Positions 33,177 to 56,509 of a stretch of 56,548 bases of DNA are shown here, piece after piece. The first letter of the stretch is position 1. Each line of letters begins with the position of its first letter. The stretch is taken from NCBI GenBank assembly GCA_026994195.1, contig JALWRH010000068.1, positions 1 to 56,548 on the forward strand, given 5' to 3'. This DNA comes from Sedimenticola sp. (GTDB taxonomy: Bacteria; Pseudomonadota; Gammaproteobacteria; Chromatiales; Chromatiaceae). A program made the position numbers and the translations under genes. The notes under the pieces were generated by a model. That model was not told where the DNA came from and searched no databases. It saw nothing but the letters and a program-made list of their open reading frames with translations.

Positions 33177-33398
33177 GTAGGCCGGGCTTCAGCCCGACAT
33201 TATTCCTGCCGACGGGTGAGCCGCTCGATCCGGACAAGCCCCACCCGAGGCGGGTTGAAGAGACCGCTACAAGCACGTCCCTGTGCGCTTGGCCTTGGCC
33301 ATCCATGGCCTCGGACATCCCTTCAACCCGCCTCGGGCAGGGCACGCCTATTGCGAGCAGGGTGGCGGCCTCTGTTGTCGGGCTGAAGCCCGACCTAC
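33177..33398. repeat. Inverted pair of REP-like units enclosing another palindrome (BIME-like)
   Basis: Two REP-like units with a CGGGCTTCAGCCCG core face each other (33177-33199 plus, 33376-33398 minus). Between them a perfect 17-bp inverted repeat (33244-33260/33321-33337) forms an inner stem. The same core occurs at 48599-48620 and 54121-54142. The whole fills the gap 33150-33422 between the PP-loop gene and the tusA-like gene. It has no coding content. Confidence 0.75.
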
Positions 33399-47672: not shown

Positions 47673-51410
<3,738 letters not shown>

Positions 51411-52500: not shown

Positions 52501-54090
52501 ATGAATGCATGGCGTTGGCTCCTGTTGTTCTTTCTACTGTCGTCACCTTTGGCTCAGGCGGGCAAGGGAGAGATCCGGTTCGTGGAAACCACAGTGGATC
52601 TCAAGGCCGATGGCAGTGCCGTCGTGCTCTACCAGGTGCAGTGGCAGGTCACGTCCGGTGAGTTGCACGGTTTTTATTTCCAGGGCAACGACAAGCTCAA
52701 GGTGGCTATGGCCGTGGACCAGGCCGGCGCCGTGGACAGCCGGGGCAACAAATACCGGCTGGATATACGCAAGCTCTCCGGAGGCAAGTGGGATATTCTC
52801 CTGGCCAATGGCGAGGGGGTGCCCAAGGGGCAGACGGTTACCTTCAATCTCCCGTTCAGGACGGATTTTCGCGCAGCGGGTTACCTGGGGTCCACAACGG
52901 CCCAGGATAGGAGGGAGCTGGTATTCTTCAACTGGTCTCCGGTGCAGTGGGATGAGGCGTCCCGCCAGGATCATTACACCCTCAAGATTCTCACGCCCTA
53001 CCGCTTGCCCGATGAATCTGTGAACCCTCGCAGTGTGGCGGATACAGAACGCCTGATTCTTACCGAACCCTGGGTGAACAAAAAATACCTGATCGATTAT
53101 CAACGCGGCCCGAGCAACCGGCTGTTGCTGGTGTTTCACAAGAATCAGCCGGGCAACCGTTTTCACATGCGGGTGCAGTTCTACATGCCGGCGGACTGGT
53201 TCGATCTGGCGGTGCCTGCGGCGGTTCCGGCCCCGGCTTCTGTGCGTAAGCAAGAGTCCAGCCCGGATTCCCTGTTACTGGTTCTGGGGCTGGCGGTGAT
53301 TGGCGCTTTCTTCGGTGTGGTAAGAGGCAAGCAGCGTTCCATGATCAAGGCCCGGGAAGGGCTGGATGAGGTGCGCTGGGAAAACCTGGACTGGACGCCG
53401 CCCAAACTGATTCTTTCCGAGTTCCGCAAGCCCGGCAAGGTGTGCGAGGATCTGACGCCCCTGGAAGCCGCGTTCTACCTGGAAATTCCTTTCAAGATGA
53501 TTGTCTCGGCCATGCTCAATTCCATGGTGAGGGAGGGTTTCCTGAAGGTTGAATCCAGATCTCCCCTGAAGGTCAATGTGCTGCAAACGCCGAATCTGCA
53601 TGAACTGGATGAATACGAGCGCCAGTTCTACCACGCCCTGGAGGATGACGGGGAACTGTCCCAGGCAGAGCTGGAGGATCTGATGAACACCGCGGTGAAG
53701 AAAGTGCAGCTCAAGGCCTGGGATGCGGATGTGGAAGCGACCCAGAATTACTATCGCAACAAGGTTCATGCGTTCATCCGGAATGCCGGGGCCGGTGAGG
53801 CCATTGCGGAGCAGTCCGACGCCCGCAACTGGTATTTCTGGTATCACAACCAGCATCCGTATTATCACCGGCGCTGGAACTATGACAACGATCCGGCCCG
53901 CTACGCCACGGACATGCCGGTCACGGTGGATCACATCATCCACGGCCCCCTGGATACGGATATCGCCCTGGAACTCAATGTCTGCCATGACGCCTGTCAT
54001 TCCGCCTGCCACAGCGCCTGTCACTCGGCCTGTCATTCCGCCTGTCACAGCGCCTGCCATTCGGCCTGCGTCAGTGGGGGGTCGCATTGA
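52501..54090 (+). CDS. DUF2207-type membrane protein with periodic Cys-His-Ser-Ala C-terminal tail
   Basis: A 529-residue protein. It has a signal peptide (1 to about 20), an extracytoplasmic DUF2207-type domain (22-235), a single TM (about 258-277), a cytosolic winged-helix-like part (PPKLILSEFRKPGKVCEDLTPLEAAFYLEIPFKMIVSAML), an aromatic His/Tyr/Trp stretch (about 442-465) and a tail from Cys495. The tail has eight Cys exactly four residues apart (495-523): CHDA, six CHSA, CVSG, ending GSH. The topology puts the tail in the cytosol, where the radical SAM enzyme of the next gene could act. I infer it is the substrate. The ATG at 52501 gives the signal peptide; a start at 52447 lacks one. Confidence 0.82.
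   Translation: MNAWRWLLLFFLLSSPLAQAGKGEIRFVETTVDLKADGSAVVLYQVQWQVTSGELHGFYFQGNDKLKVAMAVDQAGAVDSRGNKYRLDIRKLSGGKWDILLANGEGVPKGQTVTFNLPFRTDFRAAGYLGSTTAQDRRELVFFNWSPVQWDEASRQDHYTLKILTPYRLPDESVNPRSVADTERLILTEPWVNKKYLIDYQRGPSNRLLLVFHKNQPGNRFHMRVQFYMPADWFDLAVPAAVPAPASVRKQESSPDSLLLVLGLAVIGAFFGVVRGKQRSMIKAREGLDEVRWENLDWTPPKLILSEFRKPGKVCEDLTPLEAAFYLEIPFKMIVSAMLNSMVREGFLKVESRSPLKVNVLQTPNLHELDEYERQFYHALEDDGELSQAELEDLMNTAVKKVQLKAWDADVEATQNYYRNKVHAFIRNAGAGEAIAEQSDARNWYFWYHNQHPYYHRRWNYDNDPARYATDMPVTVDHIIHGPLDTDIALELNVCHDACHSACHSACHSACHSACHSACHSACVSGGSH
53983..54066 (+). repeat. In-frame 12-bp tandem repeats encoding the CHSA tail
   Basis: Seven 12-bp units from CHDA to the last CHSA. The codons vary: Ser is TCC, AGC, TCG, TCC, AGC, TCG. 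Units 2-4 and 5-7 form two 36-bp blocks that differ at three synonymous sites and at no amino acid. A block duplication followed by selection on the protein explains this. Confidence 0.85.
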
Positions 54091-54120
54091 TGGCGTCGGA
54101 CATGGGGATGCCTTCTTCCC

Positions 54121-54142
54121 GTAGGTCGGGCTTCAGCCCGAC
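54121..54142 (+). repeat. REP-like repeat before the radical SAM gene
   Basis: The same palindromic REP core as at 33177, 33376 and 48599, in plus orientation. It lies between the DUF2207 stop and the radical SAM start; the AGGAA ribosome-binding site directly follows its end. It could form a stem near the translation start. Confidence 0.75.
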
Positions 54143-54155
54143 AGGAATCCGCCAA

Positions 54156-55559
54156 ATGCTGAAATCTTTCCTGCGCCCATTGAAGCCCGCACCGGCCAGC
54201 ATGCCCGACTTGGCCTGGGTGGACGAGTTCATTGCCAATGTTGGCCCTTATATCTTCGTGCGTACCGAGGACAATATTCTCATCAAGCGCCCCAACCAGG
54301 CCCAGAAGCTCAACGCTCAGGGTGCGCAGATCCTCAAGTTCCTTCTCGATGGGGGCAAGATTGCCGGTGTGGTGCGGGGCCTGGGCGGCGACAAAAGCAA
54401 GCTGGAGCAGGTGGCCCTGTTCCTGCATGGAGTGCGGGGTTTCCTGGAAGGACAGATTACCGCGGATTCGGCGCATCCGGGGGTGGAAGTGGAAGTCTTC
54501 AACCGGCATTTTTCTGATCTTCCGATTCTTTCCGAAGTGGCCATCACCTACAAATGCAACCTGCGCTGTGTGTTCTGTTATGCCGGCTGCAACTGCACCA
54601 CCCAGCCGGTGAATGATGAGAAAGTGATGTCCGTGGAGGAGATCAGGCGCGTGTTGTACAAGCTCTGGCATGAAGGCAAAGTGCCTTCCGTGAGCTTCAC
54701 CGGGGGGGAGCCCACCCTGCACAAGCAGCTGCCTGAACTCATCGCTTACGCCAAGGATCTGGGCATGCGCGTGAATCTCATCACCAATGGCACGCGCATC
54801 AACGGAGAACTGGCGCAACGTCTTGCTGATGCCGGCCTGGATTCGGCCCAGGTCAGCCTGGAAGGCACCAGCGCGGAGATACACAATCTGGTTACACAGG
54901 GGCAGGCGTCCTTCGACAAGACCGTGGCGGCGGTGGGGCACCTGAAAGCCGTGGGGATACGGGTGCATACCAATACCACCATCAACCGGATGAATGTCCA
55001 TGAAATGCCGGGCATGCCGCGTTTTGTCCGCGAGGTGCTGGACAACGAACGCTTCAGCATGAACCTGTTGGTGCCCACGGGCAGCGCCGTGGTGCACCCG
55101 GATCTGATCGTGCGCTACACCGAGATCGGTGACTGGCTGATGAAGATCCAGGAGCAGAGCAAGGCCCAGGATGTGGAGTTTCTCTGGTATTCCCCCACGC
55201 CCATGTGCATGTTCAATCCCATTCCCGCGGGTCTGGGCAATCATGGCTGCAGCGCCTGCGACGGCCTGATCTCCGTGGCCCCCAATGGCTCGGTGATTCC
55301 CTGCGCCTCCTATGATGATGAAGTAGGCAGCCTGCTGGAGAAGAATCTGGTGGATGTCTGGAACGGTCCCAAGGCCAGGGGATACCGGGACAAAGCCCTG
55401 GCGCACCCCCAGTGCCGGGAATGCAGCCAGTTCGATATTTGCAATGGCGCCTGCCCCCTGTACTGGCGGGAACTGGGTTTTGAGGAGCTGGAAGCGCACA
55501 ACGGCTTTTCCCGGGCCGAAGCCCTGGGGTACGTGCTGCCAGAGGAGAAGGAACAATGA
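54156..55559 (+). CDS. Radical SAM/SPASM protein with N-terminal PqqD-like domain
   Basis: A 467-residue protein. Residues ~30-105 (YIFVRTEDNILIKRPNQAQKLNAQGAQILKFLLDG) resemble PqqD, the RiPP recognition element fold. The radical SAM motif CNLRCVFC has Cys134, Cys138 and Cys141, then SFTGGEPTL and ITNGTRIN. The C-terminal SPASM region has GNHGCSACDG, SVIPCASYDDE and HPQCRECSQFDICNGACP, for auxiliary 4Fe-4S clusters. This architecture is typical of peptide-modifying enzymes (sactipeptide or thioether, PQQ-like). The start MLKSFLRPL (54156) has AGGAA eight bases upstream. The next gene overlaps by ATGA. The substrate is probably the CHSA tail protein. Confidence 0.88.
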   Translation: MLKSFLRPLKPAPASMPDLAWVDEFIANVGPYIFVRTEDNILIKRPNQAQKLNAQGAQILKFLLDGGKIAGVVRGLGGDKSKLEQVALFLHGVRGFLEGQITADSAHPGVEVEVFNRHFSDLPILSEVAITYKCNLRCVFCYAGCNCTTQPVNDEKVMSVEEIRRVLYKLWHEGKVPSVSFTGGEPTLHKQLPELIAYAKDLGMRVNLITNGTRINGELAQRLADAGLDSAQVSLEGTSAEIHNLVTQGQASFDKTVAAVGHLKAVGIRVHTNTTINRMNVHEMPGMPRFVREVLDNERFSMNLLVPTGSAVVHPDLIVRYTEIGDWLMKIQEQSKAQDVEFLWYSPTPMCMFNPIPAGLGNHGCSACDGLISVAPNGSVIPCASYDDEVGSLLEKNLVDVWNGPKARGYRDKALAHPQCRECSQFDICNGACPLYWRELGFEELEAHNGFSRAEALGYVLPEEKEQ

Positions 55560-56509
55560 ACGCAGAAACCACGGCCATCGACAACGCCAGGGATTCGGTG
55601 GTGTTCTGGGTGCTGCCGGGCATGATTTATTCCCGGCGCATGCTTATCGCTTTTGGGCTGATTGTGCTGGGGTTGCTGTTGCAATGGTATTCGGGAGAAG
55701 TGTTTGCGGGGGTTTTCCCCCTGATCGCGGGGAATGCTCTGCTGCTGGTAAAGGGTTATGACAACCGGGTGGAGTTTGCCGGGTTCAGCCCTTCCAGCCA
55801 GTGGCAGAAAGTGGAGCGCAGCCGTCTTGCAGAGCTGAAAGCCTTCGACAAGAAAGTGCGGCGCTGGGATCGCAGCTTTGTTGATATCACCAATGGCTGG
55901 GGGCTATTTACTTTTGTCCTGCTGGTATTTCTGTTGGTGTTGATGCATATAGGCTTCAGTGAATCCAGCAGGTACAGGCTGCTGGAAGCGATTCCCGTGG
56001 ACATGGCGATTCTGTTTCTGCCTCACTGGTTTACAGGCACCCGGCGCATCCTGCGTCTGCCCGGCCTGCTCATCAAGAGCGAGACCCTGGAGCGGGTTCT
56101 GCAGGAGGTCGATCCTGAGCGCAGTGGCTACAAGGTGGACGTGCTGATGCTCCTCAAAGGCAAGGAGAGCAAACTGCCGGCTGATATCAAGATCAAGATA
56201 GAACCGAAAAACGCCCCGGAAGGGTTTCTGGGCTTATATGGGCAGGTGGTCATCAATGCCGTGCAGGGGAAGTCCTACCCGTATTTCTACGTGGTGCTGG
56301 TAGCGCGCCCCGGCATGGGGTTGAGTGCTTTGGCCGGGACGTTTTCTCCCCCTGATGACGTGGTAAAGGAAATGCGCACCCAGGAAGGCGTGAAGGTGCT
56401 GGTGATACGCCAGCATACCACCAAGCGCTCCGGCTACCATACCAGGCCGGAACGGGTCCGGGAGTTGCTGGAACTGGGCATGCAGCAGATGCAGCGCTTG
56501 CTGGCATAA
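55556..56509 (+). CDS. Membrane protein of unknown function coupled to the radical SAM gene
   Basis: A 317-residue protein with two hydrophobic segments near residues 29-66 and one near 116-134, a fourth around 150-160, and a soluble C-terminal half (about 190-317) with YKVDVLMLLKGKESKLPADIKIKIEPKNAPEGFLGLYGQVVINAVQGKSYPYFYVVLVA. No family was recognised. It overlaps the radical SAM gene by ATGA. It may serve as a partner, exporter or quality-control factor for the modified protein; this is inference from gene order. Confidence 0.7.
   Translation: MNAETTAIDNARDSVVFWVLPGMIYSRRMLIAFGLIVLGLLLQWYSGEVFAGVFPLIAGNALLLVKGYDNRVEFAGFSPSSQWQKVERSRLAELKAFDKKVRRWDRSFVDITNGWGLFTFVLLVFLLVLMHIGFSESSRYRLLEAIPVDMAILFLPHWFTGTRRILRLPGLLIKSETLERVLQEVDPERSGYKVDVLMLLKGKESKLPADIKIKIEPKNAPEGFLGLYGQVVINAVQGKSYPYFYVVLVARPGMGLSALAGTFSPPDDVVKEMRTQEGVKVLVIRQHTTKRSGYHTRPERVRELLELGMQQMQRLLA

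Follow-up and report, generated by a model that had tools for sequence, protein, structure and literature searches.

The window analysed here is a 56,548-nucleotide stretch of DNA from Sedimenticola sp. (assembly GCA_026994195.1, contig JALWRH010000068.1). Near its end, three coupled genes, designated A, B, and C, are arranged head to tail on the forward strand (52501–56509). Gene A encodes a membrane protein with a repetitive Cys/His-rich C-terminal tail, gene B a radical S-adenosylmethionine (SAM) enzyme that probably matures this tail, and gene C a second membrane protein. The stop codon of A overlaps an in-frame ATG of B within the sequence TGATG (54088–54092). B may begin at this ATG (54090) or at an alternative in-frame ATG at 54156, and its stop ends at 55559. 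B and C overlap by ATGA (55556–55559), as already recognized in a preliminary description of this DNA made from the sequence alone. The features are listed in Table 1.

Table 1. Positions of genes A, B, and C and of the features within and between them (position 1 is the first nucleotide of the window; RRE, RiPP recognition element; TM, transmembrane).
Feature	Position	Strand	Basis or remark
Gene A, putative substrate	52501–54090	+	DUF2207-like membrane protein with C-terminal HxAC tail
TM helix of A, residues 258–291	53272–53373	+	AlphaFold2 model; hydropathy gives 253–277
C-terminal tail of A, CHDAC(HSAC)6VSGGSH, residues 495–529, 8 Cys and 8 His	53983–54087	+	
Gene B, RRE-radical SAM/SPASM enzyme, probable tail maturase	54090–55559	+	Profile and motif matches
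PqqD-like (RRE) region of B, residues 30–94, frame from 54159	54246–54440	+	Homologue-derived profile and alignment
Radical SAM CxxxCxxC motif of B	54555–54578	+	64/64 aligned homologues
SPASM region of B, seven Cys	55206–55454	+	All seven in 64/64 aligned homologues
Gene C, membrane protein with soluble α/β domain (residues about 169–317)	55556–56509	+	
REP-like palindrome GTAGGTCGGGCTTCAGCCCGACA, between A and body of B	54121–54143	+	

The A protein ends in ...ELNVCHDACHSACHSACHSACHSACHSACHSACVSGGSH. A pattern for CHx[A/G] arrays matches the window five times, always within the A tail, and gives no match in 100 dinucleotide shuffles. The last 37 residues of A are identical in all eight genomes of the genus that carry it, at a whole-protein identity to the window of 67–84%. 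No variant tail was passed over in the order, because a profile search of its 210 genomes finds A in these eight only, all of one genus. The codons beneath the identical tails vary silently in 30 of the 37 columns, and a total of 372 codon differences is reached when the 28 genome pairs, themselves not independent, are added up.

Related tails were sought in a collection of species genomes, described as comprising 84,980 of them, with a pattern that demands three consecutive units, so that shorter arrays would escape; the counts are lower bounds. At least 117 stretches carry the pattern, and 84 of the 117 pass a motif test. Two of the latter, L084 and L115, were judged spurious and removed, leaving at least 82 tail loci. 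These are spread over at least 26 named phyla plus unnamed ones, in both bacteria and archaea, including Asgard archaea. At least five loci are archaeal (Thorarchaeota, Heimdallarchaeota, and Thermoproteota). The tail gene is readable in 78 loci, and four more have the tail at the edge of the retrieved stretch.

The last 85 residues of 77 A proteins, leaving out the cut tail of L130, contain 795 Cys, of which 642 lie within H-x-A-C. Ala precedes the Cys in 713 of the 795 cases, and His is in place in 644. Position x is mainly Ser, then Asp, Asn, and others. The residue preceding His is usually Cys, and V, S, E, T, N, or A are also seen. Judged from these tails, the repeat unit kept across phyla is H-x-A-C and not C-H-S-A, because the residue before His varies while H-x-A-C holds. 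The repeat array reported in the preliminary description is thus real, but its conserved unit is framed differently.

The number of CHx[A/G]C units varies little. Among the 78 tails, 32 contain seven units, 31 contain eight, and 14 contain nine; the remaining one (L130, six units) is interrupted by a contig end. Tails recovered by starting from the enzyme (see below) have 7–9 units in 40 of 42 cases. The other two are L271, with 10 units, and L171, with five, in which a contig end breaks the same array as in L130. In 37 of the 78 tails, serine is encoded by TCN as well as by AGY codons, and those tails are therefore not fresh tandem copies. The narrow unit number and the identical same-genus tails with silent variation fit the earlier suggestion that the tail is a fixed structure.

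Window B matches the Pfam families Radical_SAM (8.6e-31) and SPASM (9.1e-9), in agreement with its first assignment. At E ≤ 1, Radical_SAM is found in all 64 B homologues and SPASM in 63. The three radical SAM Cys and the seven Cys of the SPASM region (C350, C364, C382, C419, C422, C428, and C432, frame from 54159) are present in every one of the 64 aligned homologues. By profile, the nearest solved structure is SkfB (9.2e-34), a thioether-forming maturase, followed by PqqE and, further down, by 5v1q and 5wgg, presumably SuiB and CteB.

The N terminus of B had been described as PqqD-like, that is, as a recognition element (RRE) of ribosomally synthesized and post-translationally modified peptides (RiPPs). 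PqqD (PF05402) is detected in 41 of the 64 homologues (E ≤ 1, best 6.6e-11). When eight B proteins were tested singly, four exceeded the cut-off, from two Chloroflexota, one Thermoproteota, and one Thorarchaeota locus. A profile of the PqqD stretch from 15 distant B proteins (type II, see below) matches all 49 others, window B at 1.2e-9 over residues 30–86. A PqqD-like domain in window B is supported by this match to a profile of distant homologues.

Tail and enzyme are paired near-perfectly in both search directions. Starting from the tail, a B match above 200 bits lies in the retrieved stretch of 67 of the 82 listed loci, a few of which are cut by contig ends. The other 15 (11 from the first set of 78, plus the four edge loci) were resolved mostly by whole-genome search, which covered 18 genomes including three controls, and a B match was found in 13 of the 15 genomes. 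In total, 80 of the 82 listed tail loci have B either in the locus itself or in the genome, where presence in a genome means a profile score among the best few candidates per genome, many genomes being drafts. At L041 and L099, a fragment of B runs off the contig end. The genomes of L082 and L124 are split over contigs. The preliminary description had named CHSA-tailed genes never found beside such an enzyme as the result that would speak against it; the opposite is seen.

The reverse search used a profile of the 64 B members. In the spirochaete phylum, B occurs in 11 of 247 genomes, and all 11 carry a tail. A tail is likewise found in 3/3 high-scoring Chloroflexota genomes, in 12/12 Planctomycetota genomes, and in 19/19 examined of 29 high-scoring Asgard loci (16 chosen for contig room, plus L236, L027, and L051). 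Over the four phyla, the tail is present in all 45 genomes examined; every B of this score class seen there is accompanied by a tail. The genome sets of the two directions overlap in part. In the genus of the window, A and B occur in the same 8 of 15 genomes and neither occurs in the other seven.

A second enzyme class is found in Chloroflexota, Asgard archaea, and Planctomycetota (matches of 1e-83 to 1e-109). In 17 of 17 loci (15 from Chloroflexota, one of the many Asgard matches, and one from Planctomycetota), the sister enzyme adjoins a protein with a (CA)n tail whose end reads CACA...GCACACAGGGR or nearly so. Over their bodies, an alignment of five (CA)n proteins shows homology to A (hhalign 99.7%, 5e-27). 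SPASM and PqqD matches are present in both sister enzymes scanned, and five sister enzymes form their own clade relative to the 64 B proteins. The sister loci are L196–L210, L238, L277, L278, and L279. L278 additionally encodes, downstream, a further protein whose N terminus is similar but which apparently lacks CxxxCxxC.

The body of A had been assigned to DUF2207. Window A itself scores below the cut-offs, with 17.8 bits against a gathering cut-off of 24.4 for PF09972, 15.4 against 33 for PF20990, and 24.3 against a curated cut-off of 43 for TIGR04222 of NCBIfam; a PF09972 search of its own genome gives no match. Among 51 A proteins, however, PF09972 is detected in 21 and TIGR04222 in 16 (E ≤ 0.1). 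An AlphaFold2 model of A (predicted local distance difference test score, pLDDT, 84.6; predicted TM-score 0.52) is sequentially composed of an N-terminal hydrophobic helix, an all-β domain resembling DUF2207_N, one TM helix, a TIGR04222/DUF2207_C-like domain, and the tail. We read the N-terminal helix as a signal peptide and the domain after the TM helix as predicted to be helical or winged-helix-like. The nearest Foldseek match is chain O of 8b6l (1.7e-9), a human translocon/oligosaccharyltransferase complex, which we take to be ribophorin I. Endoplasmic reticulum and insulin-regulated aminopeptidases also match (about 240 columns, root mean square deviation (rmsd) 5–6).

A basic stretch directly follows the TM helix of A. 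Among the homologues, the flank charge is higher downstream in 31, higher upstream in 15, and equal in four. With a presumed cleaved signal and, in the model, one TM helix that precedes basic residues, the C-terminal half and tail of A would be cytosolic.

Window C reaches no Pfam or NCBIfam family at cut-off, and neither B nor C reaches an NCBIfam cut-off in the tables examined. Homologues of C (n = 39) give scattered weak Pfam matches only. The model of C has a pLDDT of 88.7, and Foldseek returns nothing at E ≤ 0.001. Residues 169–317 align with type III secretion chaperone/YbjN-like folds, with a best Z of 8.3 (rmsd 3.4, 113 residues aligned) in VIA-align, where a Z of 7–8 is a common level. 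The modelled fold hints that the soluble domain may bind polypeptide.

The tails fall into two types by their ends (n = 78). Type I (61 tails) mostly ends in VSGG, and type II (17 tails) contains VHDAC units and ends in F, or GGFR. Among the loci with at least 3.2 kb downstream are 31 of type I, 29 of them with B and 30 with C. The corresponding 11 type II loci include 10 with B and 10 in which a coiled-coil protein takes the place of C. A B tree built by a quick method accommodates the tail types with the fewest changes possible. Neighbour clustering of the 78 tail loci, in stretches spanning at most about 8 kb, shows that only A, B, and C or the coiled-coil protein, plus reverse-strand reading frames, are common to at least 10 loci. 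All other clusters occur in at most five loci, and by eye no protease or exporter cluster is seen in more than 3 of the 78 within these stretches.

We consider it about 75% probable that A–B–C is a RiPP-like maturation system whose substrate stays a membrane protein and whose enzyme B modifies the cytosolic tail, probably by thioether cross-links. Overall, the interpretation in the preliminary description, in which the tail is the modified segment, is supported. The strongest indirect evidence that B works on the tail is the sister pairing, in which each of two related enzymes goes with its own kind of Cys tail, carried by membrane proteins that are themselves related. We infer an action of B on the tail, the type of bond, the topology (from the model), and roles for C and for the finished rod, as follows. 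A would be synthesized and enter the membrane so that its C-terminal half faces the cytosol. The PqqD-like domain of B would bind A by reading its cytosolic domain, and B, with SAM, its radical cluster, and its SPASM clusters, would modify the HxAC units serially. The likeliest chemistry, as a first guess, would be a thioether cross-link that joins each Cys to a residue nearby, because no unit lacks a Cys and thioethers are the product of the closest relative of solved structure. A His-to-Ala bond, of the three-residue cyclophane type, is an alternative, because His and Ala vary only slightly more than Cys. The replacement of Ala by Gly in some upstream units counts against it. C, or the type II coiled-coil protein, may help to keep the substrate in place or to orient it. 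Once complete, the tail would be a stiff Cys/His rod at the inner membrane face, probably metal-binding or redox-carrying. The modified product would probably stay on A, because no protease or exporter is widely common among the neighbours.

A broader proposal is possible but doubtful: the HxAC and CA tails may both be enzyme-made cofactors of a new, built-in class, rigid rods on a membrane protein that dedicated RRE-radical SAM enzymes cross-link processively. Such rods would bind metals or clusters, serve redox or metal signalling at the inner face of the membrane, and have been conserved with little change in bacteria and Asgard archaea.

RiPP enzymes are known mostly for small diffusible products that diversify quickly. 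Here, such an enzyme architecture is tied to the near-invariant C terminus of a large membrane protein in at least 26 named phyla and two domains. The repeat number of mostly 7–9 and the constancy of the tail point to a housekeeping role for radical SAM protein modification, and chemistry on His-x-Ala-Cys would probably be new. The sister family is a natural comparison for which residues matter, as Ala precedes Cys in both tails, and A–B is a directly testable gene pair.

Several observations weigh against tail maturation by B. The Pfam PqqD model detects no domain in window B, nor at E ≤ 0.01 in four nearer relatives. The AlphaFold tail helix of A is of low confidence (pLDDT about 43). The hydropathy segments of the 51 A proteins are mixed (two in 28, three in 12, one in nine, five in one, and none in one); the topology was taken from the AlphaFold model. 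At L100 (WOR-3), the tail and a partial B match lie far apart on one contig. L031 is one of two tail genes in a Myxococcales genome whose sole B adjoins the other, and in one archaeal case 8.5 kb separate tail and B. HExxH-like motifs are seen by eye in two three-locus neighbour clusters (L029, L105, and L111 in Chloroflexota; L027, L051, and L090 in Thorarchaeota); these are possibly metallopeptidases, with cleavage in some branches.

The best NCBIfam neighbours of B, of the AhbD/NirJ/PqqE types, also include haem enzymes. Because AhbD and NirJ act on tetrapyrroles, a non-peptide substrate for B is possible. AhbD is matched at 1e-30 or better by 61 of the 64 B members. These haem-type enzymes give the highest NCBIfam scores for B, yet window B scores 129 bits, roughly one quarter of the 500-bit cut-off. 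Unlike them, B contains a PqqD-like domain, and no tetrapyrrole genes are seen by eye among the clustered neighbours. By its neighbours, we read the weakest Planctomycetota enzyme match (4.4e-51) as AhbD-like.

Eight Cys and eight His at fixed spacing are natural soft-metal ligands, and the low-confidence model helix would set the Cys on one face. The tail might therefore be an unmodified metal-binding or redox rod, with B maturing another part of A, loading a cofactor, or acting elsewhere in the pathway. This is unlikely, as metal binding alone leaves unexplained an Ala whose constancy equals or exceeds that of His (713 versus 644 of the 795 Cys). Moreover, an enzyme with a peptide-binding domain accompanies 80 of the 82 listed tails, and its sister accompanies a different Cys tail.

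That A–B makes a secreted RiPP natural product, with the tail modified, cut off, and exported, is less probable still. RRE-containing radical SAM enzymes usually serve RiPP pathways, B has maturase-like profile matches, and the two HExxH-like clusters could be peptidases. However, the only widely common neighbours are A, B, and C or the coiled-coil protein, and the tail hardly varies across phyla, unlike competitive natural products.

Each CHSACH can also be read as CxxxCH, which would allow a c-type haem rod made by cytochrome c maturation. PF01578 (CcmC/CcsA-type) has three matches in the genome of the window and is present in 20 of 30 tail or enzyme genomes; it is without a match in the other 10, mostly drafts, so that some absences may be false. 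This reading is very improbable, because those 10 genomes weaken it, the model places the tail in the cytosol, the canonical haem spacing is CxxCH, and haem c explains neither the constant Ala nor the radical SAM partner. A coincidental low-complexity tandem repeat of no common function, for which the 33 of 117 pattern stretches that are other sequences, the two of 84 spurious passes, and three viral stretches with CHSAC repeats in short frames without B might speak, is refuted by the silent codon changes in identical tails, the narrow unit number, and the two-way linkage to one enzyme family.

Tail maturation by B can be compared with several known systems. The sactipeptide/ranthipeptide maturases of the SkfB, CteB, and SuiB class share with B an N-terminal RRE, a radical SAM core, and SPASM. 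Those enzymes act on small cleaved peptides, whereas the putative substrate here is the tail of a membrane protein of roughly 500–920 residues. The CXXX-repeat (TIGR04117) and ACGX (TIGR04340) systems likewise combine Cys repeats with a radical SAM/SPASM partner, and their targets are small peptides. TIGR04117 weakly matches 11 of the 51 A proteins (E ≤ 0.1, best 3e-4). A and B are far below the NCBIfam cut-offs, at 9.8 of 50 bits for TIGR04117 and 104 of 400 bits for rSAM_ACGX (TIGR04340).

TIGR04222 proteins with Cys-rich C termini lie beside multinuclear non-haem iron-dependent oxidative enzymes (MNIO, DUF692) and, in the part of PMC12452194 consulted, are described as putative precursors, many without MNIO. 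The two systems share a membrane protein of the same broad family, a low-complexity Cys C terminus, and a RiPP-type enzyme partner. They differ, to judge from that part of PMC12452194, in the partner (RRE-radical SAM/SPASM instead of MNIO), in the tail (HxAC or CA repeats instead of Ser/Gly-rich sequence with scattered Cys), and in its location (modelled as cytosolic here and predicted as periplasmic there). In PMC12452194, "radical SAM" occurs in the reference list only and "rSAM" nowhere. The tail strings were not found in the open literature searched, subscription literature and bioRxiv being outside the search. In that literature, no paper was found joining radical SAM, SPASM, and DUF2207, or any two of CXXX repeat, ACGX, and SPASM. 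The pairing of this tail with this enzyme seems not to have been described previously.

MNIO was considered as a partner of the tail and rejected; of 30 genomes with the tail or the enzyme, 22 yield no match to it. The genome of the window contains an MNIO (MbnB_TglH_ChrH) gene at G000:C44:12827-13612, on another contig than A, and one is also present in three of four other same-genus genomes tested. In the same-genus genome G006, the MNIO gene and A share a contig, about 420 kb apart.

Within the phylum of the window, B is found at E ≤ 1e-50 in one of 398 sampled genomes, its own. Because of this patchy distribution, A–B has probably spread horizontally or been lost frequently. A scan of viral collections with B gave no relative. 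The tail pattern occurs in 25 viral stretches, none with B in a profile search of the stretches, and all 25 were set aside. Three of them (L143, L144, and L146, on viral contigs) read CHSAC repeats in frames of 65–94 residues and were set aside by judgement as short repeats; no B lies in the stretch searched. A selenocysteine-like tail at L074 (CH*A repeats) is a frame artefact of an ATEP repeat.

The type II coiled-coil protein, of about 390 residues, is encoded at L029, L040, L076, L086, L087, L097, L105, L107, L111, and L117. At L076, L087, L097, L111, and L117, its gene is followed by one for a small membrane protein whose end resembles a zinc ribbon (below the Pfam cut-off). A similar coiled-coil or small membrane protein is seen by eye upstream of the (CA)n genes at L278 and L279. 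Five spirochaete loci (L067, L069, L081, L120, and L127) have in common a further small membrane protein gene.

The window also contains a 23-base palindrome, GTAGGTCGGGCTTCAGCCCGACA, that resembles repetitive extragenic palindromic (REP) elements. It occurs at 33177–33199, 33376–33398, 48598–48620, and 54121–54143 with 0–1 mismatches, and in none of 100 shuffles. The copy at 54121–54143 is probably an insertion that does not belong to the A–B–C system.

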